The notes under the pieces: generated by a model
What the model saw: the letters and a program-made list of their open reading frames with translations, nothing else
Told to the model about the DNA's origin: nothing
Databases searched by the model: none
Program-made: the position numbers and the translations under genes
From: Chelativorans sp.
GTDB lineage: Bacteria; Pseudomonadota; Alphaproteobacteria; Rhizobiales; Rhizobiaceae
DNA length: 64,000 nucleotides
Reading direction: 5' to 3'
Assembly (NCBI RefSeq): GCF_031180965.1
Contig: NZ_JAPSLH010000005.1
Span: 1-64,000 of the forward strand
In this document: positions 36,898 through 52,844 of the stretch, piece by piece
Position numbering within the stretch: position 1 is the first letter of the stretch
Layout: every line of letters starts with the position of its first letter

Positions 36898-36965
36898 CGG
36901 ATTTCGGCGATGTCGCGAGGAGCGGCGTCTGTTCCGACGGTATTGCAACAAAGGGAGGATAGTTG

Positions 36966-38243
36966 ATGTCCAGGAAGACCATGATACTGGCCGCGCTTGC
37001 CGCCGGCATTTCCATAAGCAGCGTCGCTTATGCGCAGGAGCCGGTGGAACTCCGTTTCATGTGGTATTCCGACGGCAATGAAGGCGAGGTGATGGCCGAT
37101 CTGCTGGACCGGTTCCAGCAGGAAAATCCTGACATCAAGGTTGTGCTCGACAATGTCGCCTATGCCGTCGTCCGCGACCAGCTTCCGACGCAGCTCGAGG
37201 CCGGCCAGGGACCGGATCTGGCACGCGTGACGACGCTCAAGGATCACGCCGCCCATTGGCTCGATCTGCGCGATCTCGTCCAGGACGCCTCCTATTGGGA
37301 GCAGAATTTCGGCCCGTATCTGGATTGGATGCGGCCTGAAGGCAGCGACATTATCCCTGGCTACATGACCCAGCTCACGGTCACCGGCCCGTTCGTCAAC
37401 CGCACCCTGTTCGAGCAGGCGGGCGTGGAACTCCCGGGTGAAGGCGCCACTTGGGACGACTGGGCTGCTGCCGTGAAAAAAGTGGCCGAGAGCCAGCAGG
37501 TCCCGATCCCGCTCGCCATGGACCGTTCCGGCCACCGTTTTGCCGGCCCTGCGGTCTCCATGGGCGCGAAATTCATCGGCGAGAATGGTGCTCCCGCCGT
37601 CATCGACGACGGTTTCAAGGCGATGGCCGAGCGCGTCGCACGCTGGCACGAGGACGGCACCATGTCGCCCGAAATTTGGGGCGGGGTCTCCGGCGCCACC
37701 TATCGCGGCGCCAACGAGGAATTCGCCAATGCCGAAGTGGTGATGTATTTCTCGGGCTCCTGGCAGATCAGCCAGTTCGCCGAGACGATCGGCGACGCCT
37801 TCGATTGGGCAGCCGTGCCCAACCCATGCGGCCCGGAGGCCTGCACGGGCCTGCCCGGGGGCGCAGGGGTGGTTGGCATCAAATACACGCAGCATCCGGA
37901 ACAGGTCGCGCGCCTCATGGACTGGCTCGCGAGCGAGCCGGTGCTCAAGGAATTCTACGAGCGCACGCTGTTCCTTCCCGGCCATGTGGGCCTGACGAAA
38001 GCCGGCCTTGACTATCAGTCCGACAATCCAAGCGTGAAGGAGTCGCTCGACACCTTCGTGAAGGAGGTCGGAAACTTGGCGCCGCTCGCCAACCGTCTAC
38101 CCGCGTGGCAGTGGGCGAATGTCAGCTATGCCGCCATCATCACCCGGCTCGGTCAGGTGGTCGCGGGCGAGATGTCCCTGGAGGATGCCTATCAGCGCAT
38201 CCAGGAGGATATCGACCAGCAGGTCGCCGAGGCGAAGCGCTAA
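36966..38243 (+). CDS. extracellular solute-binding protein (family 1), sugar ABC importer
   Basis: A 425-residue family 1 binding protein. A signal peptide ends at SVAYAQ, then VELRFMWYSDGNEGEVMADLLDRFQQENPDIKV, the typical opening of oligosaccharide-binding proteins. Family features continue with PDLARV, GAVFPVNRT-like sequence (as GPFVNRTLFEQAGVELP) and SGSWQISQF. The ATG has GGGAGG seven bases upstream. It is the receptor for the two permeases and ATPase downstream, but a palindromic repeat element separates it from the first permease. The cargo is probably an oligosaccharide or glycoside that feeds the unknown 841-residue protein. Confidence 0.9.
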   Translation: MSRKTMILAALAAGISISSVAYAQEPVELRFMWYSDGNEGEVMADLLDRFQQENPDIKVVLDNVAYAVVRDQLPTQLEAGQGPDLARVTTLKDHAAHWLDLRDLVQDASYWEQNFGPYLDWMRPEGSDIIPGYMTQLTVTGPFVNRTLFEQAGVELPGEGATWDDWAAAVKKVAESQQVPIPLAMDRSGHRFAGPAVSMGAKFIGENGAPAVIDDGFKAMAERVARWHEDGTMSPEIWGGVSGATYRGANEEFANAEVVMYFSGSWQISQFAETIGDAFDWAAVPNPCGPEACTGLPGGAGVVGIKYTQHPEQVARLMDWLASEPVLKEFYERTLFLPGHVGLTKAGLDYQSDNPSVKESLDTFVKEVGNLAPLANRLPAWQWANVSYAAIITRLGQVVAGEMSLEDAYQRIQEDIDQQVAEAKR

Positions 38244-38546
38244 GTACCTGCAGGCGAGTAAGATCTTGCGATTTCGGCAGCTGTCCCGCCCTGCGTTGCC
38301 CGCCTCTGCCCTGCCGGGCATCTCCCCCGCAAAGGGGGAGATCGGCCGACGCAAACGGTTTCGCTTCTCGGCAGCCTCGCAAGAGCGGCGGCATGCCCGC
38401 CGCCGGCGTAATCTCCCCCTTTGCGGGGGAGATCGGCGGCAGCCCAGAGGGGGGCGCGAAGGGGTGCTCCCTTTCCTGTGTAGGCGATCGCCGCTAGCGG
38501 TTCTTCGCTGCGGCTGGCGACTCCGTCGACCGGGCGAAGGACAGCC
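38244..38546 (+). repeat. intergenic region with two palindromic repeat units (Mesorhizobium-like CTCCCCC/GGGGGAG element)
   Basis: The 303-base gap holds two copies of the hairpin ATCTCCCCC-N5-GGGGGAGAT, at 38320-38342 and 38411-38433. The loops are GCAAA and TTTGC, so one copy is the reverse complement of the other, and both are followed by CGGC. This is the general form of palindromic repeats scattered through Mesorhizobium-type genomes. It sits inside an ABC transporter operon, where it may act on mRNA stability or reduce permease expression relative to the receptor. No gene is evident in the gap. Confidence 0.72.
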
Positions 38547-39574
38547 ATGACGGTCGAAAGCAGCTCCGAGGCTGCCGTCTCGTCCCGCATCGCCGGCATT
38601 CTCCTCGCGCCCCTGCGCTGGGCGATGGGCCTCATCGACCTGCCGATGAGCTGGGTTCAGCGCCGCCTCGGCACAGGCGGTGTGGTCGCCGCCATGCTGG
38701 CGCCGAACATGCTGATCTTCGGCGTCTTCGTTCTCTTCCCGATGTTCCTGAACGTGCTCTACTCCTTCACAGGAGGGGGAGCCCTGTTCCTCGAGAGCCG
38801 CGTCTTCGTCGGCACGGAGCAGTACGAAACGCTCCTCGATTGCCGCACCTACCTCGATCCGGCAAGCTGCCGCGAGGACCGTTTCTGGCGCGCTGCCGGA
38901 AACACCGCCTTTTTCGTGATCGTCCAGGTGGTGCTGCTTGTACTGGTTTCGCTCATCACCGCATTGGTGCTCAACCGCGAGATGCGCGCGCGCGGCTTCT
39001 GGCGCGCCGTATTCTTCTTCCCGGTCCTGCTTTCGCCGGTCGTGGTGGCGCTGATCTGGAAATGGATCCTCCAGCGCAACGGCCTGCTCAATGCCGCGCT
39101 GGCGCAAGTCGGCGTCGAGCCCGTGCTATGGCTCGTCGACCGCAACTGGGCGATGTTCTGGGCCATCTTCCTTTCCATCTGGGCGCATCTCGGCTTCTAT
39201 ACGCTGATCCTGCTCGCCGGCCTGCAGGCCATTCCCGCCGATCTCTACGAGGCGGCGGAGATGGACGGCACGCCCCGCTCGCGGGTGCTCGCGCGCATCA
39301 CCCTGCCTCTGCTCTGGCCAAGCCTCGTCGTCGTCATCCTGCTTGCGCTCATCCGCGCCGTGCAGGTCTTCGATGAGGTTTTTGTCCTGACCGGCGGCGG
39401 TCCCGGCAGCGCGACGCTCTTCCTCGTCCAGTATATTTACGAGACCGGCCTTGCCCAGCAGGTGCGCAATCTCGGTCTCGCCTCCGCCGCTTCCATCCTG
39501 ATGGCGCTGGTTCTCGTCGTGCTGACGCTGATCCAGCTTTCCGCCACCGCCTGGCGGGAGAGGAGGGAGAAGCG

Positions 39575-39578
<4 letters not shown>
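38547..39578 (+). CDS. sugar ABC transporter permease (MalF/UgpA type)
   Basis: A 343-residue permease with six main hydrophobic segments after a 50-residue N-terminal extension. The ATPase-coupling EAA loop reads YEAAEMDGTPRSRVLARITLPLLWP near residue 235. It pairs with the second permease, which starts within its stop codon (GTGA overlap). Confidence 0.9.
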
Positions 39579-40624
<1,046 letters not shown>

Positions 40625-40632
40625 GGCGTCGC

Positions 40633-41712
40633 ATGAGCCATCTCGAACTGAAGAATGTGAGCAAGTCCTTCGGCAGGGTGGACGTGCTGCACGACATCGA
40701 TCTGGAGGTGATGGACCGGGAGTTCGTGGTCTTCGTCGGGCCGTCCGGCTGCGGAAAGTCGACCCTGCTGCGCATCATTGCCGGCCTGGAAAAGGTCACC
40801 TCAGGCGAGGTGGTGCTCGATGGGAAGGTGGTGAACAATGTTGCCGCCGCCGACCGGGGGCTTGCCATGGTCTTCCAATCCTACGCGCTCTACCCGCATA
40901 TGAGCGTGCGCCAGAACCTGTCCTTCGGGCTGGAGAACACCAGTACGCCGAGGGCGGAGATCGATGCCCGCGTCGGCGAGATCGCGCGGATGCTGCGCAT
41001 CGAGGAGCTCCTGCACCGCACGCCGCGCCAGCTTTCCGGAGGCCAGAGGCAGCGTGTCGCCATCGGCCGTGCGATGGTGCGCCGTCCAGGCATTTTTCTC
41101 CTCGACGAGCCGCTCTCCAATCTCGACGCCGAGCTCCGCGTTACTATGCGCGCCGAGCTCGCCGCGCTCCACAAGCGGCTCGAAGCGACGATGATCTACG
41201 TCACCCACGATCAGACCGAGGCGATGACACTTGCGGACCGGATCGTGGTCCTGCGTGACGGTCGTGTCGAGCAGATCGGCACTCCACTCGACCTCTACAA
41301 CCGTCCCGCCAACCGTTTTGTGGCGGGCTTCATCGGCGCGCCGCACATGAATTTTCTCGAGGGGCGTTTCGTCGTTGGTGAAGGAAATTCGGCGGAGGTC
41401 GAGCTCGATGGCGGCCACAGGCTCACACTTCCTATTTCTGTGAGACCGGCAGGCGAGCCGGTAATGGTAGGCATAAGGCCTCACCATATCGGCCTGGATG
41501 CAGTGGGGGCGGGCATCCCGGCCGCCGTCACGCTGGTGGAGGCGCTGGGCCCGGAAACGATCGTACATGCGGAGGCTGCCGGGCACCGCATCATTGCAGC
41601 CTTGGCCGGTCAGAGGAGAATCGCGGTGGGCGAGACCATCTCCTTGTTCTTCGACCCGCAGCATCTGCATGCGTTCGACAGCGAAGGCAGACGGCTCCCG
41701 GAAGGCGCCTAG
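40633..41712 (+). CDS. sugar ABC transporter ATPase (UgpC/MsmX type)
   Basis: A 359-residue ATPase. Walker A is GPSGCGKST, the Q-loop [12 protein letters not shown], the signature [14 protein letters not shown], Walker [13 protein letters not shown] and the H-loop THDQ. After about residue 235 the TOBE/regulatory domain follows. The ATG eight bases past the permease stop begins [14 protein letters not shown], the usual N-terminus; the track of open frame further upstream overlaps the permease. It powers the family 1 importer of this locus. Confidence 0.93.
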
Positions 41713-41821
41713 GGCTCTCCAGGTAAAACAACTTGACAATGCCGTGGACTTCCCCGCGCCGCAGTCTTAAATCAGGACCGGTGTTCGAGCCGCCTTGTGA
41801 CGGCTCTGCTTGAGGAAAACC

Positions 41822-43354
41822 ATGAACGACCTGTCCGGGCGTCCGCCCTTTCTTCGCCTGTCCGATGAGGACAATGTCGCCGTCGCCGTGCGTACGCTCG
41901 ACCCCGGCACTCCGCTCGCCGGCTCGGTGATCACCGCAAAGCGCATCCCCTTCGGGCACAAGGTGGCGCTTCAGCCGGTCGCTCCCGGCGAGGCGATCCG
42001 AAAATTTGGCCAGATCATCGGCTTTGCGAAGGTGCCGATCGCGCCGGGCGAATGGGTCCACGAGCACAATCTGGAAATGCGCGATTTCGAGCGCGACTAC
42101 CGCTTTTGCGAGGATGCCCGCCCCGTGAACGTGCTTCCGCCCGAGGAGCAGGCGACCTTTGAGGGCTATCGCCGCTCCAATGGCCGGGTCGGTACGCGCA
42201 ACTATATCGGCATCCTGACCAGCGTGAACTGCTCGGCCTCCGTTGCCCGCTTCATCGCCGAGGCGGCAAACCGGTCCGGCCTGCTCGACGACTACCCGGA
42301 TGTCGACGGCGTGGTGGCCTTCACCCACGGCACCGGCTGCGGCATGGCGGGAAAGGGCGAGGGTTTTGACATCCTGAAGCGCACGCAATGGGGCTATGCG
42401 GCAAACCCCAATCTCGGCGGCGTGCTGATGGTGGGCCTCGGCTGCGAGGTCTTCCAGATCGCTCGGCTGAAGGAACTCTACGGGATCGAGGAGGGCGATG
42501 CTTTTCGCTCCTTCACCATTCAGGATTCCGGCGGCACCCGGCGCGCCATCGAGGCGGGCATCGAGGTGGTCAAGGATATGCTCCCGGCTGTAGCCTCCGC
42601 TAAGCGTGAGACGGTACCCGCATCGGAGATTAAGCTCGCCCTGCAATGCGGCGGCTCCGATGGCTATTCCGGCATCACGGCCAATCCGGCGCTTGGTGTC
42701 GCCGCCGACATACTGGTGCAGAACGGCGGCACGGCGGTGCTTTCCGAGACGCCGGAGATCTACGGCGCCGAACATCTTCTGACACGCCGGGCCATCGATC
42801 GCGCGGTCGGCGAGAAGCTGGTCGAGCGCATCCGCTGGTGGGAGGAATATACCGAGCGCAACAGGGGCGAGATGAACAACAACCCCTCGCCGGGCAACAA
42901 GGCGGGCGGCCTCACCACCATCCTGGAAAAATCCCTCGGCGCTGCTGCAAAGGGCGGCTCAACGCCGCTAACCGCCGTCTATGAATATGCCGAGCCGATC
43001 ACGGAGAAGGGCTTCGTCTTCATGGACACGCCGGGCTATGATCCGGTCTCTGCCACCGGCCAGGTCGCGGGCGGCTGCAACGTGCTCTGCTTCACCACGG
43101 GCCGAGGCTCGGCCTATGGCTGCAAGCCTACCCCCTCCATAAAGCTCGCCACGAACACGCAAATCTACGAGCGTATGATCGAGGACATGGACATCAACTG
43201 CGGCGATATCCTGGAAGGCGTATCGCTGCAGGAGAAGGGCCGCGAGATCTTCGACGAGGTGCTGGCCGTCGCTTCCGGCAAGCGCAGCAAGTCCGAACTG
43301 CTGGGTTATGGCGACAACGAGTTCGTGCCCTGGCAGATCGGCGCCGTGATGTGA
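41822..43354 (+). CDS. uxaA: altronate/galactarate-type dehydratase (UxaA family)
   Basis: A 510-residue UxaA-family dehydratase. The N-terminal SAF domain (FLRLSDEDNVAVAVRTL to about residue 95) is followed by the catalytic part with RSNGRVGTRNYIGI, THGTGCGM and LQCGGSDGYSGITANPALG. The C-terminal half has GCNVLCFTTGRGSAYGCKPTPSIKLATN. It dehydrates altronate or a related sugar acid to a 2-keto-3-deoxy acid. In this locus it would act after the mannitol dehydrogenase-family enzyme if that reduces tagaturonate, although UxaA relatives with other sugar-acid substrates are known. A 109-base gap separates it from the ATPase gene; transcription still appears continuous. Confidence 0.85.
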   Translation: MNDLSGRPPFLRLSDEDNVAVAVRTLDPGTPLAGSVITAKRIPFGHKVALQPVAPGEAIRKFGQIIGFAKVPIAPGEWVHEHNLEMRDFERDYRFCEDARPVNVLPPEEQATFEGYRRSNGRVGTRNYIGILTSVNCSASVARFIAEAANRSGLLDDYPDVDGVVAFTHGTGCGMAGKGEGFDILKRTQWGYAANPNLGGVLMVGLGCEVFQIARLKELYGIEEGDAFRSFTIQDSGGTRRAIEAGIEVVKDMLPAVASAKRETVPASEIKLALQCGGSDGYSGITANPALGVAADILVQNGGTAVLSETPEIYGAEHLLTRRAIDRAVGEKLVERIRWWEEYTERNRGEMNNNPSPGNKAGGLTTILEKSLGAAAKGGSTPLTAVYEYAEPITEKGFVFMDTPGYDPVSATGQVAGGCNVLCFTTGRGSAYGCKPTPSIKLATNTQIYERMIEDMDINCGDILEGVSLQEKGREIFDEVLAVASGKRSKSELLGYGDNEFVPWQIGAVM

Positions 43355-43404: not shown

Positions 43405-44511
43405 TTACGCCGCCGCCTTCGCTCTCTCTGGAAAGAGCTCAAGCAGACCCTCTGCCGAAGCCTCCGCAATCCCCCGCTCCGTGATGAGCCCGGTCACGAG
43501 TCTTGCCGGCGTCACGTCGAAGGCTGGGTTGGCGGCGGGTGTCGCATCGGGCGAAATCCGCACCTGCGTGATCTGCCCGTCCTTCGTCCGGCCCCAGACG
43601 AGCGAGACTTCGTCGGCCGAGCGTTCCTCGATGGGGATTTCCTTCACGCCGTCGCGCACCGTCCAATCGATCGTCGGCGAGGGCAGGGCGACGTAGAAGG
43701 GCACGCCGTTGTCCTTTGCGGCGAGCGCCTTCAGATAGGTGCCGATCTTGTTGCAGACGTCACCATTGGCGGTGGTGCGGTCGGTGCCGACGATCACCAT
43801 GTCCACCATGCCGTGCTGCATGAGATGTCCGCCGGCATTGTCGACGATCAGCGTGTGCGGCACGCCGTGTCCCGCCATCTCCCAGGAGGTGAGATGGGCG
43901 CCCTGGTTGCGCGGCCGCGTTTCGTCCACATAGACATGGACGGGGATCTTTTCCTCTGTGGCCAGATAGATGGGCGAGGTGGCGGTGCCGTAATCCACCG
44001 TCGCAAGCCACCCGGCATTGCAGTGGGTGAGGATGTTGACCGGCTCGCCTGGTTTCTTGCGGCGCGCGATCTCCTTGATGATCTCCAGCCCATGCCCGCC
44101 GATCGCGCGATTCAGCTCCACGTCCTCGTCGGCGATCTCCGCCGCGCGGGCATAAGCCGCAGCCGCACGCTCGCCTTCGGGCAGGGGGCGAAGCGTCTCA
44201 CGCATAGCATCCAGTGCCCAGCGCAGATTGATCGCGGTGGGGCGCGTGGCGTGCAGGTCTTTCCACACCGCATCGAGCGCGGCGTCGGATGGATCTTCCC
44301 GCATGCGGATGGCCACGCCATAGGCCGCCGTCACGCCTATCAACGGCGCGCCGCGCACCCACATGTCGCGTATGGCGGTGGCGATGCCTTCCACCGTGCG
44401 GATATTCTCCACGCGGAAGTCATGCGGCAGCCAGCGCTGGTCGATGACGTCCACCGACCAGCCGTCCTCGTTGACCCAGATGGTGCGGTAGTGCTTGCCT
44501 GCGACCTTCAT
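43405..44511 (-). CDS. mtnA: S-methyl-5-thioribose-1-phosphate isomerase
   Basis: A 368-residue MtnA, which converts 5-methylthioribose-1-phosphate to 5-methylthioribulose-1-phosphate. The catalytic Cys164 lies in [11 protein letters not shown] and the catalytic Asp244 in [19 protein letters not shown], matching Cys160 and Asp240 of the Bacillus enzyme. The N-terminal [16 protein letters not shown] is also family-typical, and the length is normal. It follows the mtnK gene by 21 bases on the same strand. None of the later oxidative salvage genes (mtnB, mtnC/mtnW/X, mtnD) is nearby; a RhaD-type aldolase is instead found in the same locus. Confidence 0.94.
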
Positions 44512-44532
44512 TCTTCTTCTCCTTGCGGGGGC

Positions 44533-45792
44533 TCAAAGGCCCTTGTCGAGCGACTGCGCCAGGTGGTTGATCTCCGCGAGCGAGTGGATATGCCGGCGGT
44601 TCACGGCGATATGCCGCCCGAATTTCAGCGCGGCTCCCTCGCAGGATGCCCTCGAGCCTGTGTCCTCGATGGTTTCGAAATCGGCATTGTGGGCAAGGCC
44701 CAGGATGCGCCGGTGGATCTCCACCCCGGCAAAGCCCAGCATGTCCGTCCAGACCTCATGGATGAGATGGGAAAGCGCCTGCTCGGCGCCGAGTGTGTCG
44801 CCCTGGTCCTCATAAAGGCTGCGGTGATACAGCATGCCCGTGCGCTCCGTGCGCCAGAGGCGGGCGAATTCCGCCCGGAATACCGCCCAGGTCTCCTCGA
44901 TCACCTGCAACAGATAGGCGCGCATCGCCTCGCGGGAACCCTGCTCCTCGTGTCCACGCTGGGAGAAGAAGGCCATCCAATAGTTGGCGAGCAGCATGCC
45001 CACATCGAAGGCGATCGGCCCGTAAAAGGCGAACTCGGGGTCGATGACGCGTGTATCGCCGTCGGTCACCATCACCGAACCCGTGTGCAGGTCGCCATGC
45101 ACCAGCGTCTCGGCTTTGGCGGCGAAGAGGTGCTTCAGCTTCTGCGCCTCCACCTTGAGGTTGCGGTCCGCGCGCAGCTCCGCCACCAGCGGATCGAGCT
45201 CCGGCGTATGCCGGTTCATGGGCGCGGCGAAATAGGGGTCGGTGAAGACCAGGTTTTCCGTGATGTCGCAGAGCTCGGTATTGTCCGCGAAGAGCGCCAG
45301 GTCCGCCTTCCGCTCGCGTGTGGGCATGTGAAGGTCGGAGCCGCGGAAGAGCGTGCGCGCCATGAACAGGCCGAGGTCTTCGGCGATCCTCGGCAGTTGC
45401 CGGCCTTGGATCAGCGCCCGCCGCAGGATGATGTGCGGCGAGAGATACTCCATCGCGATCAGCGCCTGGCTTTCGTCGAAATGATAGATGGCGGGCACCG
45501 AGCCCGGCGCGCGCTTCTCCTGCCTCGTCAGCGCATGATATTCGAAGAAGGAGCGCTTGAGCGGCAGCGGCCAGCTGTCGCCGACGAGCCGCACATAGGG
45601 AAGCGCCTGCTTCACGACGACCGCTGCTTTCTCCCCCTCCACGATGAAGACCAGGTTGAGGTTTCCATCGCCCACCTCGCGCACTTTCCAGGCGGATGGC
45701 TGCCCGCCCACGCGTTCCGCAACCGCGGCAACGGGCCCAAGCCTCTGCGGCAAGGTCTCGACGGTCAGGGCTTGGAACGTGCTCCCGTGCAT
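44533..45792 (-). CDS. mtnK: S-methyl-5-thioribose kinase
   Basis: A 419-residue sugar kinase of the protein-kinase-like fold, phosphorylating 5-methylthioribose at C1. The nucleotide region has GDGNLNLVFIV with VVVKQALPYVR. The catalytic loop is HGDLHTGSVMVT (residues 232-243) and the metal motif is IDPEFAFYGP (Asp251, Glu253). I start at the second ATG, which has GGAGG at good spacing; an ATG four codons earlier sits directly on a GAGGAGG sequence and is less likely. It is transcribed with mtnA, divergent from an ABC importer, and an operator-like site shared with the SorC regulator gene lies in the gap. Confidence 0.92.
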   Translation of the reverse strand: MHGSTFQALTVETLPQRLGPVAAVAERVGGQPSAWKVREVGDGNLNLVFIVEGEKAAVVVKQALPYVRLVGDSWPLPLKRSFFEYHALTRQEKRAPGSVPAIYHFDESQALIAMEYLSPHIILRRALIQGRQLPRIAEDLGLFMARTLFRGSDLHMPTRERKADLALFADNTELCDITENLVFTDPYFAAPMNRHTPELDPLVAELRADRNLKVEAQKLKHLFAAKAETLVHGDLHTGSVMVTDGDTRVIDPEFAFYGPIAFDVGMLLANYWMAFFSQRGHEEQGSREAMRAYLLQVIEETWAVFRAEFARLWRTERTGMLYHRSLYEDQGDTLGAEQALSHLIHEVWTDMLGFAGVEIHRRILGLAHNADFETIEDTGSRASCEGAALKFGRHIAVNRRHIHSLAEINHLAQSLDKGL

Positions 45793-45840
45793 TGCTTCCT
45801 CCATCCTCCTCGACCTTCCCGCGCTAGGCTATCAAGCGGC

Positions 45841-45866
45841 TTGTCATTTTTCAATGGTGTTGACAA
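45841..45866. promoter_or_regulatory. operator/promoter region between mtnK and the ABC importer
   Basis: TTGTCA (45841-45846) and TGACAA (45861-45866) form an inverted repeat with centres 20 bases apart. The 17-mer at 45841-45857 matches the SorC-gene operator at 13 of 17 positions. TTGACA (45860-45865) could also be a -35 for the ABC operon, which puts the dyad over the promoter. Confidence 0.6.
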
Positions 45867-45904
45867 ATGCTCGGCTCCTGCTAGCGTCATGAGGGGAGGA
45901 ATTC

Positions 45905-47479
45905 ATGGCAGAGGGCGCCATCTTCCGCATTGCGGGGTTGCGAAAGTCGTTTGGGCCGAACGAGGTCCTGCGCGGCATCTCGCTTGAATTGAGGGCCGGC
46001 GAGGTCACCGTCCTCATGGGCGCCAACGGCGCCGGCAAGTCCACCCTGGTGAAGATCATGAGCGGCATCCACGCGGCCGATCGCGGCGTGATGATGCTGG
46101 GCGAGAATCCTTTCCTGCCCGCCTCTCCCGCCGAGGCAATGCGCGCCGGCGTGGTAACCGTGCACCAGAACATCGATGACGGTGTGGTGGGCGCGCTCGA
46201 CGTCGCCACCAATCTGGTGCTCGACCAGCTGAACGGCGCCGGCCGCGGGGTTTTCTTCAATCCGCGCCGGGTTCGGCGGGAGGCTCAAGAGGTGGCGAGC
46301 CGAATGGGCCTGCGCCTCGATCTTGCCGCCGACGTGACCGAACTGCCGCTTGCCGACCGGCAGATGGTGGCGATCGCCCGCGCCATGGCGCATGAGCCGA
46401 AGGTCATGATCCTCGACGAGCCCACCTCCTCGCTGTCGGCCAACGAGGCGACGCGCCTCTTCGAGCTGATTGACCGCCTGCGCGCACGCGGCGTCGCCAT
46501 CCTCTACATTTCCCACCGCATGTCCGACATCCGCCGGATCGCCGACCGCATCGTCAGCCTCCGCGACGGGCAGATCGCCGGCTTGTTCGAGCAGAAGCCG
46601 CTCGATTATGAGGGCGCGGTGGACGCGATGCTGGGCCGCAGCCTGGGGAAAAGCGGCGTTGCCGCTCGGGCCGCCACTCGGCCCGTTTTCTTCGCCGAGG
46701 ACCTGCAGATCGCGCCGGGCAGCCGGCCCTTCGCGCTCTCGCTCGGCGCGGGCGAGGTGGTGGCCGTCACTGGCCTTGTCGGCGTGGGCAAGACGCAGCT
46801 TGCCGAGACGCTTTACGGCATCCATGCCCCCCTTGCCGGAACCATGCGGCTCGACGGCAGCCCCTATGCGCCGGGGAGCCCCGCGGAGGCGATCGCGCGC
46901 GGCGTTTTCCTTGTCGCGAAGGATCGTGCGCGCACCGGCATCGTGCCGGACTTCAACCTCTACGAAAACATGAGCCTGCCTTTCCTGCCGCGCTTTTCGC
47001 ATCTTGGCGTTGCGCGCCGGCGGGCGGAGCGGGCGACAGCACGCGAGCAGATCAGGAATTTGCGCATCGTCTGCCGCTCCGAGCGGGACGACCTTTCCAC
47101 TCTGTCGGGCGGCAACCAACAGAAGGTCGCTGTCGCGCGCTGGCTGTCGCAGCCCTCGCGCATGCTCATTCTGGACGAGCCGTTCCAGGGCGTCGACATC
47201 GCCGCGCGGCACGACATCGCGGCCAAGTTGCGGGAAAGCGCTGCCGACCGCGCCACCCTCCTCTTCCTCACGGAACTGGACGAAGCGCTGGAGACCGCCG
47301 ACCGCATTCTCGTGATGTCCGAGCATACGATCGTCGGCGAGCACCGCACTGCCGAGATTGACATGGAGCGGCTTCTTGCTGACGTGGCGGGCGGCGTTGG
47401 CCCCGGCCTTGCGGTTGCGGGTGGGAAAGGCCGCCACGTAGATCACATGGAAGCAGAGAGTGTGAATGATGGACGGTGA
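45905..47479 (+). CDS. sugar ABC transporter ATPase, two domains (monosaccharide class; probable methylthioribose/deoxypentose importer)
   Basis: A 524-residue fused ATPase. The first domain has Walker A GANGAGKST and Walker B VMILDEPTSSLS; its signature is degenerate around ELPLADRQMVAIARA. The second domain has Walker A-like GLVGVGKTQ, the signature [14 protein letters not shown] and Walker B LILDEPFQGVD. Unlike the furanose ATPase in this window, the second Walker A keeps the Lys (GVGKTQ), so both sites may bind ATP well. It is the first gene of the importer operon divergent from mtnKA and overlaps the permease gene by 14 bases. Confidence 0.9.
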   Translation: MAEGAIFRIAGLRKSFGPNEVLRGISLELRAGEVTVLMGANGAGKSTLVKIMSGIHAADRGVMMLGENPFLPASPAEAMRAGVVTVHQNIDDGVVGALDVATNLVLDQLNGAGRGVFFNPRRVRREAQEVASRMGLRLDLAADVTELPLADRQMVAIARAMAHEPKVMILDEPTSSLSANEATRLFELIDRLRARGVAILYISHRMSDIRRIADRIVSLRDGQIAGLFEQKPLDYEGAVDAMLGRSLGKSGVAARAATRPVFFAEDLQIAPGSRPFALSLGAGEVVAVTGLVGVGKTQLAETLYGIHAPLAGTMRLDGSPYAPGSPAEAIARGVFLVAKDRARTGIVPDFNLYENMSLPFLPRFSHLGVARRRAERATAREQIRNLRIVCRSERDDLSTLSGGNQQKVAVARWLSQPSRMLILDEPFQGVDIAARHDIAAKLRESAADRATLLFLTELDEALETADRILVMSEHTIVGEHRTAEIDMERLLADVAGGVGPGLAVAGGKGRHVDHMEAESVNDGR

Positions 47480-48524
47480 TCTGGCCGGAAAGACCGCGGC
47501 GAAACTGGAAGCCCCAGTGCAGGGCCGCCTTTCCGCCCGCGAGCTTGCGATCCGCTACGGGTTTCTCGTCCTGCTCGTGGGGCTCATCGTCTTCTTCTCG
47601 CTTGCGACGCGAGGCTTCACATCGCCGCAAGCCGCGGTGTTCATCCTTCAGTCCGTCTCCATCACCGGCATTCTGGCGCTCGGCGTCACCGCCACCATGG
47701 TGGTGGGCGGCTTCGACCTTTCCATCGGATCCATCGCCACCAGCGCCATGATGGCGGCGGCCTATGTGATGGTGGTGATGGAGCAGAATGCGCTGGTCGC
47801 CGTTGTGGTTTGCCTCGCCATCGGCGCGTTGGTCGGCCTCATCAACGGCCTCATCATCTGCTATATGCGCGTGCCGGATCTTCTGGCCACGCTCGGCATG
47901 ATGTTCCTGCTCATCGGCCTGCAGCGCATCCCGACGGAGGGCCGCTCCATCGCCGCCGGCATGACGATGCCGGACGGCTCGACCGCCGCCGGCACTTTCA
48001 GCGCCAATTTCCTCGCGCTCGGCCGGCACCGCTTCGATTTCTTCATCCCTGATCTGGTGCCGGCTTCGGTCGTGGTGCTGATCGTGCTTGCCGTCCTGAT
48101 TTGGTTCTTTCTCGAATACACGCGCTTCGGCCGCATGATGTATGCGGTCGGCTCGAACGCCCGCGCCGCCGAGTTCGCCGGCGCGCCGGTGAGGGCCTAC
48201 AAGATCTGGGCCTATGTCATCTCGGGCGTCTTCGCCTCCATTGGCGGTATCCTGCTTGCCGCCCGGCTGGGCCGCGGTGACATCGCCTCGGGGAATAATC
48301 TTCTGCTCGACGCCGTCGCCGCGGCATTGATCGGTTTCGCGGTGCTCGGCGCGGCAAAACCAAATGCTTTCGGCACGGCCGTGGGGGCGCTATTCGTGGG
48401 CGTGCTGCTGCAGGGCCTCACCATGATGAACGTGCCCTACTACACGCAGGATTTCGTCAAGGGGGCGGTGCTCGTCATCGCGCTTGTCTTCACCTTCTCG
48501 CTTCTCGGCCGCAAGGGCCGGTAG
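47466..48524 (+). CDS. sugar ABC transporter permease (monosaccharide class)
   Basis: A 352-residue permease with about ten hydrophobic segments. The class motif ALGVTATMVVGGFDLSIGSIATSAMM lies near residue 75, and the coupling segment NARAAEFAGAPVRAYKIWAYV near residue 235. Two adjacent ATG codons are possible starts. Only one permease gene is present, so the channel is probably a homodimer, unlike the two-permease importer earlier in the window. Confidence 0.9.
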   Translation: MMDGDLAGKTAAKLEAPVQGRLSARELAIRYGFLVLLVGLIVFFSLATRGFTSPQAAVFILQSVSITGILALGVTATMVVGGFDLSIGSIATSAMMAAAYVMVVMEQNALVAVVVCLAIGALVGLINGLIICYMRVPDLLATLGMMFLLIGLQRIPTEGRSIAAGMTMPDGSTAAGTFSANFLALGRHRFDFFIPDLVPASVVVLIVLAVLIWFFLEYTRFGRMMYAVGSNARAAEFAGAPVRAYKIWAYVISGVFASIGGILLAARLGRGDIASGNNLLLDAVAAALIGFAVLGAAKPNAFGTAVGALFVGVLLQGLTMMNVPYYTQDFVKGAVLVIALVFTFSLLGRKGR

Positions 48525-48555
48525 TGGAAAAGAATCCGATCAACAGGAGGAGAGC

Positions 48556-49608
48556 ATGATTTTTACGCGTAGAGTTCTGGGCAAGCTGGGGCTTGCGCTG
48601 TTGGGCACGAGTGTCCTTGCGCCCATGGCGGCGGCGCAGGAAAAGCCGGCGCCTTTCGACAACCCGGGCGAAGTCGAGATCGCGCTGGTGCGCTATCTTT
48701 CGACCGGCGACTTCTTCCAGGCCTATCTTTCCGGCGTCGAGGCCCAGGCCAAGGCGCTCGGGGTGAACCTGCGCGTCTTTGACAGCCGCCAGGACGCCGC
48801 GCTCCAGGCCGACATGGTGGACCAGGCGATCGCCCTCGGCGTCGACGGCATCGTCATTCAGCATGGCCTGACCGAATCCATGAAGGAGGCGGCCCAGCGC
48901 GCGGTGGACGCCGGCATCAAGGTCGTGGCCTTCGACGTGAATGTCGAGAACGAAGCCATCCCGCAGATCGAGCAGTCAGACCGCGATCTTGCGCGGCTCG
49001 CACTGGAGCAGGCCATCAAGGACAATGGCGAGAGCTGGAAGGCGGCCTACGTCTACGTTGCCGGCATCGCCCCGCTCGACCGCCGCGACGAGACCTGGCG
49101 GCAGTTCAAGGAGAAATACCCGGGCATCGAGGAAGTGGCGCAGTTCGGCACGCTCGACAACCCGATCGCCAACTCCGTCGCTAACCAGGCCCGCTCGGTG
49201 CTTTCGGCCAACCCGGACATCCAGGTGGTCTTCGCCCCCTATGATGAATTCGCGAAGGGGGTGAAGATCGCCGTTGACGAGGCCGGCCTGTCGAGCGGCA
49301 TCAAGATTTACTCCGCCGACATCTCGACCGCCGACATTGCCGCCATGCGCGAGCCGGGCAGCGCCTGGGCGGCCACCGCTGCCACCAACCCGGCCGTGGT
49401 GGGCGAGGTTTCCGTGCGCGCGCTCGCCATGCTGCTCGCCGGCGAAGACCCCGGCAAGAGCGTCATCGTCCCGCCGACCCTGATCACGCAGCAGCAGCTC
49501 AACGATGAGGACATCAAGAATATGGAGGAGCTGTCTCAGAAGCTGCCGCAGTTCGCCCATGCCGATGTTGCGGTTCCCGCCTGGATGCCGCTCCCGCCGC
49601 GCGACTGA
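48556..49608 (+). CDS. periplasmic sugar-binding protein (ribose-binding-like), probable methylthioribose/deoxypentose receptor
   Basis: A 350-residue binding protein of the ribose-binding class with a signal peptide ending near PMAAAQ. The mature part has VEIALVRYLSTGDFFQAYLSGVEAQAKALG and the repeated VDGIVIQHG and VFAPYDEFAKG segments of the two lobes. The ATG follows CAGGAGGAGAGC. It ends the importer operon and is followed by a strong terminator. Pairing with mtnK and mtnA points to a free pentose-like ligand such as 5-methylthioribose or 5-deoxyribose, which is inferred from context only. Confidence 0.88.
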   Translation: MIFTRRVLGKLGLALLGTSVLAPMAAAQEKPAPFDNPGEVEIALVRYLSTGDFFQAYLSGVEAQAKALGVNLRVFDSRQDAALQADMVDQAIALGVDGIVIQHGLTESMKEAAQRAVDAGIKVVAFDVNVENEAIPQIEQSDRDLARLALEQAIKDNGESWKAAYVYVAGIAPLDRRDETWRQFKEKYPGIEEVAQFGTLDNPIANSVANQARSVLSANPDIQVVFAPYDEFAKGVKIAVDEAGLSSGIKIYSADISTADIAAMREPGSAWAATAATNPAVVGEVSVRALAMLLAGEDPGKSVIVPPTLITQQQLNDEDIKNMEELSQKLPQFAHADVAVPAWMPLPPRD

Positions 49609-49631
49609 TACGCCCAGCATGAAATGAAAAG

Positions 49632-49661
49632 GGGCGGCTCTCGAGCCGCCCTTTCTTTTCC
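49632..49661 (+). terminator. rho-independent terminator of the importer operon
   Basis: Eight-base stem GGGCGGCT / AGCCGCCC with a CTCG loop, followed by TTTCTTTTCC, 23 bases after the binding-protein stop. Confidence 0.8.
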
Positions 49662-49731
49662 GTCCGAGACCATCGCCGCTGAGGGAGCGGAGCAGCCGCG
49701 AGCCGGAATGACGGTCGGATACGCAGCCTCG

Positions 49732-51783
49732 CTACCTCAGCGCGGCCGCGATATTCCCACCGTCCACCGTGGTCACATCCGCGGTGGTCCGCTCCGCGAG
49801 GGCCTGGTGCAGGAAGGCCTGCGCCACATCCTCAGCGCGCACTTCGAGGCCGAGCAGGTTGCCCCCCATATATTCCTTCTCCGAAAGGCCGCGGGCCTTG
49901 GCGCGGCTGGCGATCATCTCGTCGGTCAAAAGCCCGGAGCGGATGCGATCTGCATTCACTGCATTGGAACGGATGCCGAGCGCGCCGTAGTCGACGGCAT
50001 ATTGCCGCGACAGGAACAGGGTCGCCGCTTTGGGCAGGCCGTAGGCCCCAAAATTCGGCCCCGGATTGACCGCCTGCTTGGAGGTGTTGAAGAGCAGCAC
50101 TCCGCCCGTCTTCTGCATCTGGAAGATGCGGACGGCATTCTGCGCGACGCTCTGATGGGCAAAGAAGTTTAGCTCAAAGCTTTTCCGCAATGTTGCGTCG
50201 TCCAACTCGCCGATGCGGCCCTGCCAGGCCGCTCCCGCATTGGGGATCACGATGTCGACGCCGCCAAATGTCTCCACCGCCTTATCGAACGCGGCGCGCA
50301 CATCCGCCGGGTTGGTCACGTCAGCGCCGACACCGGTGGAGTTGTTGCCGGCCTCCTTGGCGGCGGCCTTGGCCTTCTCCGCGTCGACATCGACCACCAC
50401 CACATGCGCGCCCTGGCTTGCGAAGAGCTTCGCCGTCGCCGCGCCGATTGCGCCCGCCCCGCCAGTGACCAGCATCACCTGGCCGGAAAGCGGCTTCGGC
50501 TTGTTGGAAGCGAGCTTCGCCTGCTCCAGCGACCAGTATTCCAGCTCGAACAGGTCAGAGAGCGCAAGCGGGTGGAAGGAGCCCACGGCTTCGGCGCCCG
50601 TCACCGCCTCGATAAGCATCTCGCCCACATCGGCGGCGATTTTTGCTTCCTTCAGGCTGCGGCCATGGCCAAAGAGGCCGAGGCCCCGCACCAGGGTCAG
50701 CCGCGGCATCGGATCGAGCATGGTGCGCTTCACGTCATCGCGCGCATCATTCGTCTCGAAGTACCTGCGATACCGAGCCGAGAACTCCGCGACTTGGTTG
50801 CGGATAACGGTCGCATATTCGTCCAGCTTGCCTGCCTGGGGCGCCGGCAGAACCATCGGCCCGGTCTTGATGCGAATGGAAAGGTCGGGCGTCGAGACGC
50901 CGCGCTTCGCCAATTCTTCCGCCGTCTCGGCATTCACATAGTCGAGGATTTTCGGCGAGGTGCGGAAGTCCGAGATCATGCGGTCGAAGCGGCCCTCGCC
51001 ATGGTCCACCGCTACCGCGCCGCGCAGGTAGGGTGCAATCTCCTGCGGCTTGGCCAGCGAAGCGGGGAGGGCGACCGCCTTGAAGGGATTTCCCTTCTTC
51101 GCGACGAACTCCTCGGCCAGGGTTACGAACTCGATCATGAGATCGTACGCCTTCTTCGCGTCCTCCGCGAAAGTGAAGATGCCGTGCTTGTCGAGGATGA
51201 GGCCGTCAACGCTGGGATCGGCGTCGTAGATGTCGGCCGCCGCCTTGGCGAGATCGAAGCCCGGCTTGATATAGGGCACGAAGCCCAGCCGCCTGCCGAA
51301 GACCTCGCGGCAGAGCGCCTCGCTCTCCTTCTGATCGACCAGCGCCAGGATGGCGGTGGAGTGGGTGTGGTCGACGAATTTGTGCGGCAGAAAGGCGTGC
51401 AGCAGCGTTTCGATGGAGGGGTTGGGCGCATACGGATCGATCAGGTTCGCCCGCTGCATTGCCACCATCGCCTCATCGGAAAGCGACGGCAGCTTCCGAG
51501 CAGCGAGCAGTGCCTCCATCTTCACAGCCGGCAGGCCGGCCGGTTCGATCACGGCCATGTCCCAGCCGCTGCCCTTGACGCAAAGCACGTCCCATTCCTG
51601 CCCGAGAATGTCCGTGGCTTTGGTCTTGAGCGAGGTATTGCCGCCCCCATGCAGCACCAGCCGCGGCTCGCCGCCCAGAAGCCGGGTCGTGTAGACCCTT
51701 AGCGCCAGGTCGCGTGAAACGCCTTTGGCGGCATAGTCGTTGACGAGCTTTTCGGCTTCGCTGTCGTTCCAGAGATTCTGCAT
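49732..51783 (-). CDS. bifunctional class II aldolase / short-chain dehydrogenase (RhaD type)
   Basis: A 683-residue two-domain protein. Residues about 1-400 form a class II aldolase/epimerase domain with LHGGGNTS (45-51) and metal-binding His in VDHTHST (139, 141) and DKHG (200). After a linker, a short-chain dehydrogenase follows with TGGAGAIG (440-447), PNAGA and Tyr581-x3-Lys585 with Ser568. Related proteins act as rhamnulose-1-phosphate aldolase/lactaldehyde dehydrogenase in rhizobia. No rhaI, rhaK or rhaU gene is near. The SorC gene lies 37 bases upstream on the same strand, and mtnK and mtnA are in the same locus. I therefore infer cleavage of 5-methylthioribulose-1-phosphate or 5-deoxyribulose-1-phosphate to DHAP and an aldehyde, which the second domain would oxidise or reduce. 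Confidence 0.87.
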   Translation of the reverse strand: MQNLWNDSEAEKLVNDYAAKGVSRDLALRVYTTRLLGGEPRLVLHGGGNTSLKTKATDILGQEWDVLCVKGSGWDMAVIEPAGLPAVKMEALLAARKLPSLSDEAMVAMQRANLIDPYAPNPSIETLLHAFLPHKFVDHTHSTAILALVDQKESEALCREVFGRRLGFVPYIKPGFDLAKAAADIYDADPSVDGLILDKHGIFTFAEDAKKAYDLMIEFVTLAEEFVAKKGNPFKAVALPASLAKPQEIAPYLRGAVAVDHGEGRFDRMISDFRTSPKILDYVNAETAEELAKRGVSTPDLSIRIKTGPMVLPAPQAGKLDEYATVIRNQVAEFSARYRRYFETNDARDDVKRTMLDPMPRLTLVRGLGLFGHGRSLKEAKIAADVGEMLIEAVTGAEAVGSFHPLALSDLFELEYWSLEQAKLASNKPKPLSGQVMLVTGGAGAIGAATAKLFASQGAHVVVVDVDAEKAKAAAKEAGNNSTGVGADVTNPADVRAAFDKAVETFGGVDIVIPNAGAAWQGRIGELDDATLRKSFELNFFAHQSVAQNAVRIFQMQKTGGVLLFNTSKQAVNPGPNFGAYGLPKAATLFLSRQYAVDYGALGIRSNAVNADRIRSGLLTDEMIASRAKARGLSEKEYMGGNLLGLEVRAEDVAQAFLHQALAERTTADVTTVDGGNIAAALR

Positions 51784-51820
51784 CGTCTTCCTGTCTGCTT
51801 GGTCTTGGCCGGAACGGCCG

Positions 51821-52798
51821 TTATGCAGTTGCCCGGGCGGGCTCGGGTTCAAGGGTGCTGGCCCGCTCGAGCAGGCGCTCCGCCATGCGCGCGGTCAGCA
51901 CGAGATGGGTGAAGAAGCGCCCGTTGATCGCCGCCAGAAGCGGCTCGAATTTCTCATCTTCCTGCACCACCATCAGTCGCCGTGGGATGGCGCGGATGGC
52001 GTCGAAGTCGGCCGAGATCATGCGGCGGTTGTAATCGCATTCGAGAAGCGCGCCGTCGGCGGCGATCACCTGCCCCGCTATTACGCCGACGCCGCCCATC
52101 TGCTTGATCCTGGCAAGTTCCTTCAGGCTCAGCGCGCCGCATTTGACGACATGGCTGTCCTCGTCCAGCGTGCCGACCGTGAAGAGCGCCAGATCGCAGG
52201 AACTGATCCCGTCGAGCTGCTCGTGGATCACGGGCTCCTCCCGCAGTTCCCGCGCCAGCCGCTCCGAAGTCAGCACAAGCGGCGCATAGAAATTGAGGCC
52301 TTTCGCATTGAGCCGCCGCGCGATCTCCATGGTGCATTGGTCCGGGCGGTACGAATAGGGCGAGCCGAGATTGCCGCATAGCTCCACAACGGTGACACCC
52401 TGGCGGTCCGCATAGGACATCGCGTCGGCAATTGCGTAGACGGTGCGGCCCCAGGCCACGCCGACCCGGTCCCCGTTGCGCACCATTTCGAGGAAAACGC
52501 TCGCGGCCAGGGCCGGGATTTCCGCGGCCGGGTCATGGGCAAGGCCGTCCTCGCTCACCAGCCAGACGGTATCGAGCCCGAAGGCGTCCTCGACGCGCCG
52601 CGCCATCATGTCGTTGCGGAAAAGGTCTGTCGATGTGGAAATGGTGACGATGCCCGCCTCGCGGGCCCGGCGCAGGTAAAGGGCTACGGAAGCCCGCGAG
52701 ATATTGAGGCGCCGCGCCACCTCGTCCTGCCGAAGCCCATGGGTATAGTAGAGCCAAGCGGCCTTGTGCACGATCTGATCTGCCGGACGAAGTGCCAT
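51821..52798 (-). CDS. SorC/DeoR-family sugar-responsive transcriptional regulator
   Basis: A 325-residue regulator of the SorC type. The N-terminal helix-turn-helix is GLRQDEVARRLNISRASVALYLRRAREAGIV (residues 21-51). The effector-binding domain has VGVAWGRTVYAIADAM and VVELCGNLG, and later GVGVIAGQ, features that bind phosphorylated sugars in this family. It is the first gene of a two-gene operon with the RhaD-type aldolase. A perfect TTGAC-N4-GTCAA dyad overlaps its own -35 region, and a near copy lies between mtnK and the ABC importer. It is therefore the likely controller of the whole locus, with a sugar 1-phosphate as a reasonable inducer. Confidence 0.88.
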   Translation of the reverse strand: MALRPADQIVHKAAWLYYTHGLRQDEVARRLNISRASVALYLRRAREAGIVTISTSTDLFRNDMMARRVEDAFGLDTVWLVSEDGLAHDPAAEIPALAASVFLEMVRNGDRVGVAWGRTVYAIADAMSYADRQGVTVVELCGNLGSPYSYRPDQCTMEIARRLNAKGLNFYAPLVLTSERLARELREEPVIHEQLDGISSCDLALFTVGTLDEDSHVVKCGALSLKELARIKQMGGVGVIAGQVIAADGALLECDYNRRMISADFDAIRAIPRRLMVVQEDEKFEPLLAAINGRFFTHLVLTARMAERLLERASTLEPEPARATA

Positions 52799-52827: not shown

Positions 52828-52844
52828 GCATTGACAAAAGTCAA
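52828..52844 (-). promoter_or_regulatory. operator of the sorC-type gene overlapping its -35
   Basis: Minus-strand TTGACTTTTGTCAATGC contains the perfect dyad TTGAC-TTTT-GTCAA. TTGACT with ATAATG 17 bases later forms a promoter for the regulator gene, so binding here would repress it. Confidence 0.65.

Follow-up and report, generated by a model that had tools for sequence, protein, structure and literature searches.

The dihydroxyacetone phosphate (DHAP) shunt of Escherichia coli ATCC 25922, Rhodospirillum rubrum and Rhodopseudomonas palustris combines the kinase MtnK, the isomerase MtnA and the class II aldolase Ald2 with either MtnN or MtnP. In E. coli, the shunt has been reported to be repressed by MtnR (YjhU), with CAAAT-N9-ATTTG as a candidate site; yjhU, proposed as mtnR, has been termed a DeoR-family gene, and the aldolase gene has been placed between mtnK and yjhU (PMC12632272). 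For the aldehyde step in R. palustris, just a putative alcohol dehydrogenase has been named (PMC5893883), and putative sugar transporters beside clusters for 5-deoxyribose have already been reported (PMC6079011). Equally, 5-methylthioribose and 5-deoxyribose are known to derive from by-products of S-adenosylmethionine use, and the bacterial uptake of 5-methylthioribose including its importers has been little described in the openly licensed literature. Here, we analyse a stretch of 64,000 nucleotides from Chelativorans sp. (the window; assembly GCF_031180965.1, contig NZ_JAPSLH010000005.1, positions 1 to 64,000), in which seven intact genes at positions 43405-52798 encode MtnA, MtnK, a three-gene ABC importer, a fusion of a class II aldolase with a short-chain dehydrogenase (SDR) and a SorC-family regulator. 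With a probability of about 0.78, this locus serves the scavenging, probably under SorC control, of free 5-methylthioribose, and probably of 5-deoxyribose, ending in the fused aldolase/SDR. The interpretation of an earlier note on the window is largely supported.

The genes are arranged in three groups: leftward mtnA (43405..44511, minus strand, 368 amino acids) and mtnK (44533..45804, minus strand, 423 amino acids) with a spacing of 21 bp, rightward the importer genes, which diverge from mtnK out of a common gap of 100 bp, and leftward again at the right end sorC and, 37 bp downstream on the same strand, the aldolase gene. Positions and families of the seven intact genes given in the earlier note were borne out by the open reading frames (ORFs), by NCBIfam and Pfam profile scores with start codons checked separately, and by conserved motifs; profile scores of the window proteins also agree with its statement that mtnB, mtnC and mtnD are absent among the seven. 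Family calls were made against the curated cut-offs of TIGR00512, TIGR01767, NF006192 and TIGR02632. Both enzymes by which entry into the DHAP shunt is recognised score well above them, MtnK with 503.8 bits (TIGR01767, cut-off 275) and MtnA with 430.3 bits (TIGR00512, cut-off 279). MtnK aligns over nearly its whole length with the solved structures 2pyw (residues 10-414) and 2olc, a methylthioribose kinase, and MtnA likewise with 1t9k (residues 15-351) and 6a34. Retained in these alignments are HGDLHTGS and DPEF(A/S)FYGP in MtnK and THCNAG and NGDxxNKIGTY in MtnA, which we take to be the catalytic stretches. The mtnA product probably acts on 5-deoxyribose-1-phosphate too.

The bifunctional class II aldolase/SDR (49732..51783, minus strand, 683 amino acids) matches NF006192 in full length (profile 1-685) with 1112.8 bits over a cut-off of 639 and consists of PF00596 followed by PF00106/PF13561; the longest ORF of 706 amino acids, starting at 51852, overlaps sorC, and homologues begin at 51783. 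Across 29 aligned aldolases, E125, H141 and H200 in the aldolase half never vary and H139 hardly does; in the SDR half, N539, Y581 and K585 likewise show no variation. In a structural model (predicted local distance difference test, pLDDT, 87.0), Foldseek assigned the first half to a class II aldolase domain of Thermoplasma (3m4r) and the second half to SDR enzymes. The counterpart in Chelativorans petroleitrophicus is 90% identical. The fusion is predicted to cleave 5-methylthioribulose-1-phosphate or 5-deoxyribulose-1-phosphate and to process the aldehyde released. Long frames at two survey genomes (G182, G158) that could have indicated a fusion of the aldolase to MtnA were rejected as such; intervals of 51 and 69 bp separate the two genes, and the long frame that precedes the aldolase differs from that of mtnA.

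A monosaccharide importer of the CUT2 type is composed of an ATPase with two ABC domains, a PF02653 permease and a Peripla_BP_4 binding protein, and all three components were found: the ATPase (45905..47479, plus strand, 524 amino acids, PF00005 twice), the permease (47466..48524, plus strand, 352 amino acids, PF02653 with 146.2 bits) and the periplasmic binding protein (48556..49608, plus strand, 350 amino acids, PF13407). The best NCBIfam matches, AraG, YtfR and RbsA for the ATPase and the ribose permease for the permease, all remain below their cut-offs. The binding protein is a predicted methylthioribose/5-deoxypentose binder on grounds of homology. Among solved sequences, phmmer ranks 4ry8 first (E 1.6e-67), ahead of 5ulb (1.7e-39), the best ribose binder (8.3e-17) and other, weaker matches; 4ry8 bears the title 5-methylthioribose transporter solute binding protein TLET_1677 from Thermotoga lettingae. 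Foldseek against the Protein Data Bank with the model of the protein (pLDDT 87.9, alignment of 21 sequences) equally returned 4ry8 as best match (E 8.6e-34, 38% identity, template modelling scores 0.80/0.87), with the first ribose-binding protein at 1.5e-19. Both proteins have in common an FF pair, APLDxRD, xDEFAKG and YSxD, positions such as presumably line the pocket in ribose-binding protein.

Association of the seven genes was followed in relatives, taken as the best 80 of 469 stretches from one scan of genome contigs, to which all figures on the 80 loci are limited. sorC stands next to the aldolase in 80 of the 80 loci; mtnA is present in 72 and mtnK in 71, with all seven genes in 67. Importer and aldolase do accompany mtnKA in relatives, the lack of which the earlier note had named as a refutation. 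Among the 13 incomplete loci, six are ended by a contig edge, one (L068) falls short by the length rule as its permease is in two pieces, three carry mtnKA without importer (L032, L052, L081) and two have just sorC and the aldolase within reach (L034, L069); a contig of a metagenome-assembled genome (L015) carries sorC, aldolase and mtnA without mtnK or importer. A gene conserved between aldolase and importer in Mesorhizobium was considered and rejected, as the inserts, compared by eye in 20 loci, vary; a D-alanine-D-alanine-ligase-like ORF in many, proteins with tetratricopeptide-like repeats and others were seen. At the level of the order, a sample of 297 genomes, 13 of them from the family of the window, was surveyed with Fisher tests, the p values of which overstate independence because the genomes are related. 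The aldolase family is above cut-off in 38 genomes, mtnK in 73 and mtnA in 185. Genomes with the aldolase possess mtnA in 36/38 cases compared to 149/259 without (p 1.6e-6), and mtnK in 21/38 compared to 52/259 (p 2.2e-5). In 26 of the 38, no more than 10 kb separate mtnA from the aldolase, a linkage that recurs in nine family groups. Within the family of the window, eight of the 13 genomes sampled exceed the cut-offs for all three of mtnK, mtnA and aldolase, and the remaining five exceed none of them.

Genome content bears on the source and fate of the sugar. The host genome (4.37 Mb in 64 contigs, with the window on contig C52) yields no match to the ARD/MtnD family, and of its four PF00596 stretches, the window fusion, one of RhaD type and two others, the latter two (178 and 182 amino acids) do not reach the MtnB model TIGR03328; universal methionine salvage, recognised by MtnB plus MtnD, is not found in the genome. 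The absence of a complete mtnBCD set elsewhere holds for mtnD and for matches to the MtnB model, with MtnC, MtnX and MtnE not searched genome-wide. Methionine salvage through a RuBisCO-like protein was tentatively set aside. The single PF00016 match, also the one candidate for a RuBisCO-like enzyme of a 5'-methylthioadenosine-isoprenoid shunt, lies on another contig (C43, locus L189, at about 269057) and, over the 280 residues scanned, comes closest to OiaX (314.6 of 700 bits), with 98.2 of 513.6 bits for MtnW. As a side observation, its resemblance to OiaX (3-oxo-isoapionate-4-phosphate decarboxylase), below the cut-off, hints at apiose-type catabolism elsewhere in the genome.

The three PF01048 matches of the host are two purine nucleoside phosphorylases and an AMP nucleosidase; neither a 5'-methylthioadenosine (MTA) phosphorylase (MTAP) nor an MTA nucleosidase (MtnN) was found in the window genome or in the 13 sampled genomes of its family, including 8/8 genomes that bear the locus. 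Across the survey, 20 of the 21 genomes with aldolase and mtnK are without MTA phosphorylase and 21 of 21 without MTA nucleosidase, in contrast to genomes with aldolase but without mtnK, 15 of 17 of which have MTA phosphorylase (p 1.3e-7), in some of them encoded in the neighbourhood of the aldolase; in one such arrangement (L146), mtnP, apt, mtnA and the aldolase gene lie within 9 kb. As read from gene content, two feeds, internal phosphorolysis of MTA and the action of MtnK on the free sugar, reach the same isomerase and aldolase. Because MtnK and the importer are present and no nucleosidase was found, import is the simplest source of the sugar, and free methylthioribose probably comes from outside. 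Certain organisms that lack MtnK, E. coli for one, have been reported to excrete methylthioribose (PMC6302742). The earlier proposal that the free sugar is imported is strengthened by 4ry8 as best match of the binding protein together with the lack of MTA phosphorylase and nucleosidase matches.

Regulation of the locus was approached through the SorC-family protein (51821..52798, minus strand, 325 amino acids), in which PF04198 scores 167.4 bits, above cut-off, and a helix-turn-helix appears just as weak matches near or below cut-offs. With E. coli YjhU/MtnR, represented by the copy at locus L195, it shares 31% identity across 310 residues. YjhU itself, as seen at L192 and L195, contains the PF04198 SorC-type domain, the L195 copy being identical to the K-12 protein. 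Promoter regions were compared in 68 mtnK/importer gaps and 68 regions upstream of sorC, the window included, and motifs were counted in the 1.67 Mb of DNA of the 80 loci. GTCAA-N4/5-TTGAC occurs in 67/68 gaps, with two further matches in the 1.67 Mb, one of which is in the mtnK/ATPase gap of L068. The window is the sole exception, and here the divergent promoter region of mtnK and the importer contains an operator-like inverted repeat (45845..45869) made up of two overlapping one-mismatch matches to GTCAA-N5-TTGACAAATG, a pattern drawn from the sites of relatives, with 0.01 expected. A looser form with a spacer of N4-6 is present in all 16 importer loci examined in other families and in 0/4 mtnK loci without this importer; the outer arms CAAAT...ATTTG of sites in several of the other families resemble the E. 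coli candidate site. Upstream of sorC, TTGAC-N4-GTC is found in 67/68 regions, including the window (124 matches in 1.67 Mb, both strands), and the full TTGAC-N4-GTCAA in 14/68. The window carries at this place a perfect inverted repeat, TTGACAAAAGTCAA (52831..52844), a possible operator, which is the sole mismatch-free match in the 64 kb; with up to one mismatch, 3 matches compare to 0.67 expected, and the repeat alone is not significant. By eye, both sites overlap probable -35 elements. An identical perfect operator at both promoters was looked for and not found, the full form being confined to 14/68 and the shorter form extending to 67/68 sorC upstream regions. The inverted repeats at both promoters suggest one regulon, probably under one regulator, and these conserved TTGAC/GTCAA repeats in both promoter regions are newly described.

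Taken together, a route can be proposed in which the binding protein would capture the sugar and the ABC importer, to judge by homology, would bring it into the cell. MtnK, assigned by family, would phosphorylate the sugar at C1 and MtnA, assigned on equal grounds, would convert the 1-phosphate to the ketose 1-phosphate, which the aldolase half would then cleave to give DHAP plus 2-(methylthio)acetaldehyde or, from 5-deoxyribose, acetaldehyde. By analogy with RhaEW, (methylthio)acetate or acetate would probably arise from NAD+-dependent oxidation of this aldehyde by the SDR half, which would pull the cleavage forward. The regulator is expected to sit on the conserved inverted repeats and to be relieved by the sugar or its phosphate. 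The net gain from the sugar would be a triose phosphate and not methionine.

Alternative explanations differ in the substrate, the fate of the aldehyde and the origin of the sugar. That the aldolase processes rhamnose or another ketose phosphate and lies beside mtnKA by chance is highly improbable. The RhaD-type architecture, an identity of 32% over the whole length to the RhaD of the same genome and relatives in polyol-like loci speak for it; the score of the aldolase with the rhamnose model TIGR02632 (490.6) is, however, below the cut-off of 567.75, and the host has a separate rhamnose locus on contig C50, with a fusion of its own that passes TIGR02632 at 1087.9 bits and scores 444.5 with NF006192, surrounded by what appear by eye to be a rhamnose isomerase, a DeoR regulator, a binding protein, an ATPase, permeases and a kinase. 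No rhamnose isomerase is among the seven genes of the window. In a tree of 38 rows, 36 including the window aldolase split from the two RhaD rows with support of 100/100. Rhamnose use is on these grounds together very unlikely, as the earlier note had anticipated, and the repeated linkage to mtnA in several family groups as well as the conserved sites argue against a chance neighbour. In this tree, 25 rows are labelled as mtn-linked, four come from polyol-like loci and seven are without such label; the polyol-like members (L180, L182, L202, L203), with which two unlinked rows (L150, L153) group, make up a single clade and perhaps act on another, polyol-derived substrate. At these loci, an SDR gene lies near the NF006192-family aldolase, accompanied by an FGGY kinase and SorC (L180, L182), by glycerol-phosphate-dehydrogenase-like genes (L180, L202, L203) and by other ABC genes (L202, L203). 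With such a clade present, the NF006192 aldolase was rejected as a sure marker of methylthioribose use.

Rather more weight has to be given to 5-deoxyribose or another 5-modified ribose as the main natural substrate, with methylthioribose secondary, which we nevertheless consider unlikely. The kinase DrdK takes 5-deoxyribose and methylthioribose alike (PMC6079011) and E. coli with the DHAP shunt grows on 5-deoxyribose (PMC10986504), but the best match of the binding protein, ahead of ribose binders, carries methylthioribose in its title. A similarly doubtful proposition is that the SDR half works as a reductase yielding 2-(methylthio)ethanol or ethanol. SDR enzymes are generally reversible. 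In the known DHAP shunts, E. coli and R. palustris produce 2-(methylthio)ethanol (PMC10986504, PMC5893883); RhaEW of the same architecture, on the other hand, oxidises lactaldehyde to lactate with NAD+ and requires NAD+ for net cleavage to DHAP and lactate (PMC3870299), so that oxidation of the aldehyde rather than its reduction seems, by this analogy, reasonably likely. Finally, the cluster could dispose of methylthioribose or 5-deoxyribose made internally from MTA or 5'-deoxyadenosine by a nucleosidase that escapes recognition or by either of the two purine nucleoside phosphorylases, with the importer retrieving leaked sugar. Two such phosphorylases and an AMP nucleosidase in the genome, and MtnP feeding the same aldolase family in other lineages, are in line with an internal source; yet neither MTAP nor MtnN was found in the eight sampled family genomes with the locus, and a phosphorylase would yield the 1-phosphate and leave MtnK without work, which renders this explanation improbable.

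Against the scavenging of free methylthioribose from outside, several observations have to be weighed. At just 38% identity to 4ry8, the binding protein may differ in ligand preference, and since NF006192 includes a clade in other sugar or polyol context, belonging to it is not enough to settle the substrate of the aldolase. The aldehyde is reduced in the DHAP shunts published (PMC10986504, PMC5893883). Absence of mtnD says little, as it is present in 8/297 genomes and in 0/38 with the aldolase (p 0.60), and absence of MTA nucleosidase is equally weak, with the enzyme rare anyway (17/297 genomes, p 0.14); the host may possess an unrecognised nucleosidase, and 32 of 52 genomes with mtnK but without the aldolase do have MTA phosphorylase. 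With respect to linkage, mtnA is not within 10 kb of the aldolase in 12/38 genomes, several of which have the two genes on separate contigs and two of which (G047, G290) are without any mtnA match, while pSymB of Sinorhizobium meliloti (L194, L199) carries importer, mtnK, mtnA and SorC together with no aldolase nearby. The TTGAC and GTCAA half-sites, moreover, are common to both promoters but stand in opposite order, so that a single regulator for the two, though likely, is not certain.

Beyond the family of the window, the importer, mtnK and mtnA are combined with other endings. Three loci of other families (L156, L158, L159) have the same importer, mtnK, mtnA and a regulator beside a single-domain class II aldolase; that of L156 shares 42% identity with the aldolase at the E. 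coli locus L195, which was taken as Ald2 because its gene is flanked by mtnK and by the gene of a regulator that matches K-12 YjhU exactly, the published arrangement (PMC12632272). An Ald2-like aldolase in its place at these loci favours the reading that the fusion performs the Ald2 step. Twelve further loci, all outside the family of the window and among them L196 of Ensifer sp. PDNC004, carry one or both parts of a split transketolase beside mtnKA-importer or aldolase genes, nine of them with a RuBisCO-like protein; in the 80 loci, neither was found above thresholds, with a RuBisCO-like match of 24% in L053. A possible reading of this branch is isomerisation to 1-methylthio-xylulose-5-phosphate followed by thiamine-dependent cleavage that expels methanethiol, on which a narrow query of openly licensed papers returned no paper. 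On a plasmid of Caballeronia sp. M1242 (L201), mtnK, mtnA and a class II aldolase gene stand in one series with the genes of an ABC importer and of dihydroxyacetone kinase after them. In the window itself, the adjoining region 36963-43354 contains what appears by eye to be a further ABC importer, composed of a binding protein, two permeases and an ATPase, as well as a gene resembling galactarate dehydratase (417.5 bits with TIGR03248, below the cut-off of 730.85).

Identification of the locus points to a likely importer, to a likely aldolase from a family so far named just generically and to a likely regulator together with its sites, and offers a candidate for the aldehyde-processing step. 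In the openly licensed literature, no account was found of a RhaD-type fusion as methylthioribulose-phosphate aldolase, nor of the importer in rhizobia. Tentatively, and with somewhat less than an even chance, we propose an oxidative DHAP shunt fed only from outside, as part of an importer-kinase-isomerase module with lineage-specific endings. A single polypeptide would then split the imported methylthioribose and oxidise the resulting aldehyde, yielding (methylthio)acetate and NADH, and microbes would exchange the sugar as a source of carbon and energy. The endings of the module would be the aldolase/SDR fusion, an Ald2-like aldolase or, additionally, a split transketolase with a RuBisCO-like protein, in which the RuBisCO-like protein could isomerise the ketose phosphate and methanethiol be expelled in a phosphoketolase-like reaction.

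In comparison with the systems described, the locus is, as far as gene content tells, a variant of the DHAP shunt in which the fused aldolase/dehydrogenase replaces the free-standing Ald2. Kinase, isomerase and class II aldolase domain are alike, neither MtnB nor MtnD has been found in either case, and PF04198 is a domain of the E. coli regulator YjhU/MtnR as well as of the SorC protein of the window. The aldolase of the window, in contrast, is a RhaD-type SDR fusion outside the Ald2 (FucA-like) family, with which it has the PF00596 domain in common, and blastp against the E. coli aldolase gave E 0.73 over 37 amino acids; an ABC importer takes the place of the one putative permease in E. coli, no MtnN or MtnP was found in the window genome and the aldehyde is probably oxidised. 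With DrdK/DrdI/DrdA of 5-deoxyribose salvage, some clusters of which include the putative sugar transporter genes mentioned above, the locus has the three-step logic in common, although DrdA is described as fuculose-1-phosphate-aldolase-like and the available part of that account mentions no dehydrogenase fusion (PMC6079011). RhaEW/RhaD, the rhamnulose-1-phosphate aldolase joined to a lactaldehyde dehydrogenase, displays the same domain architecture (PMC3870299), from which the window fusion differs by its score below the rhamnose cut-off, its separate clade and its different neighbours. TLET_1677 (4ry8), finally, is the best match of the binding protein in structure and sequence alike, as a Thermotoga protein at the stated distance of 38% identity.

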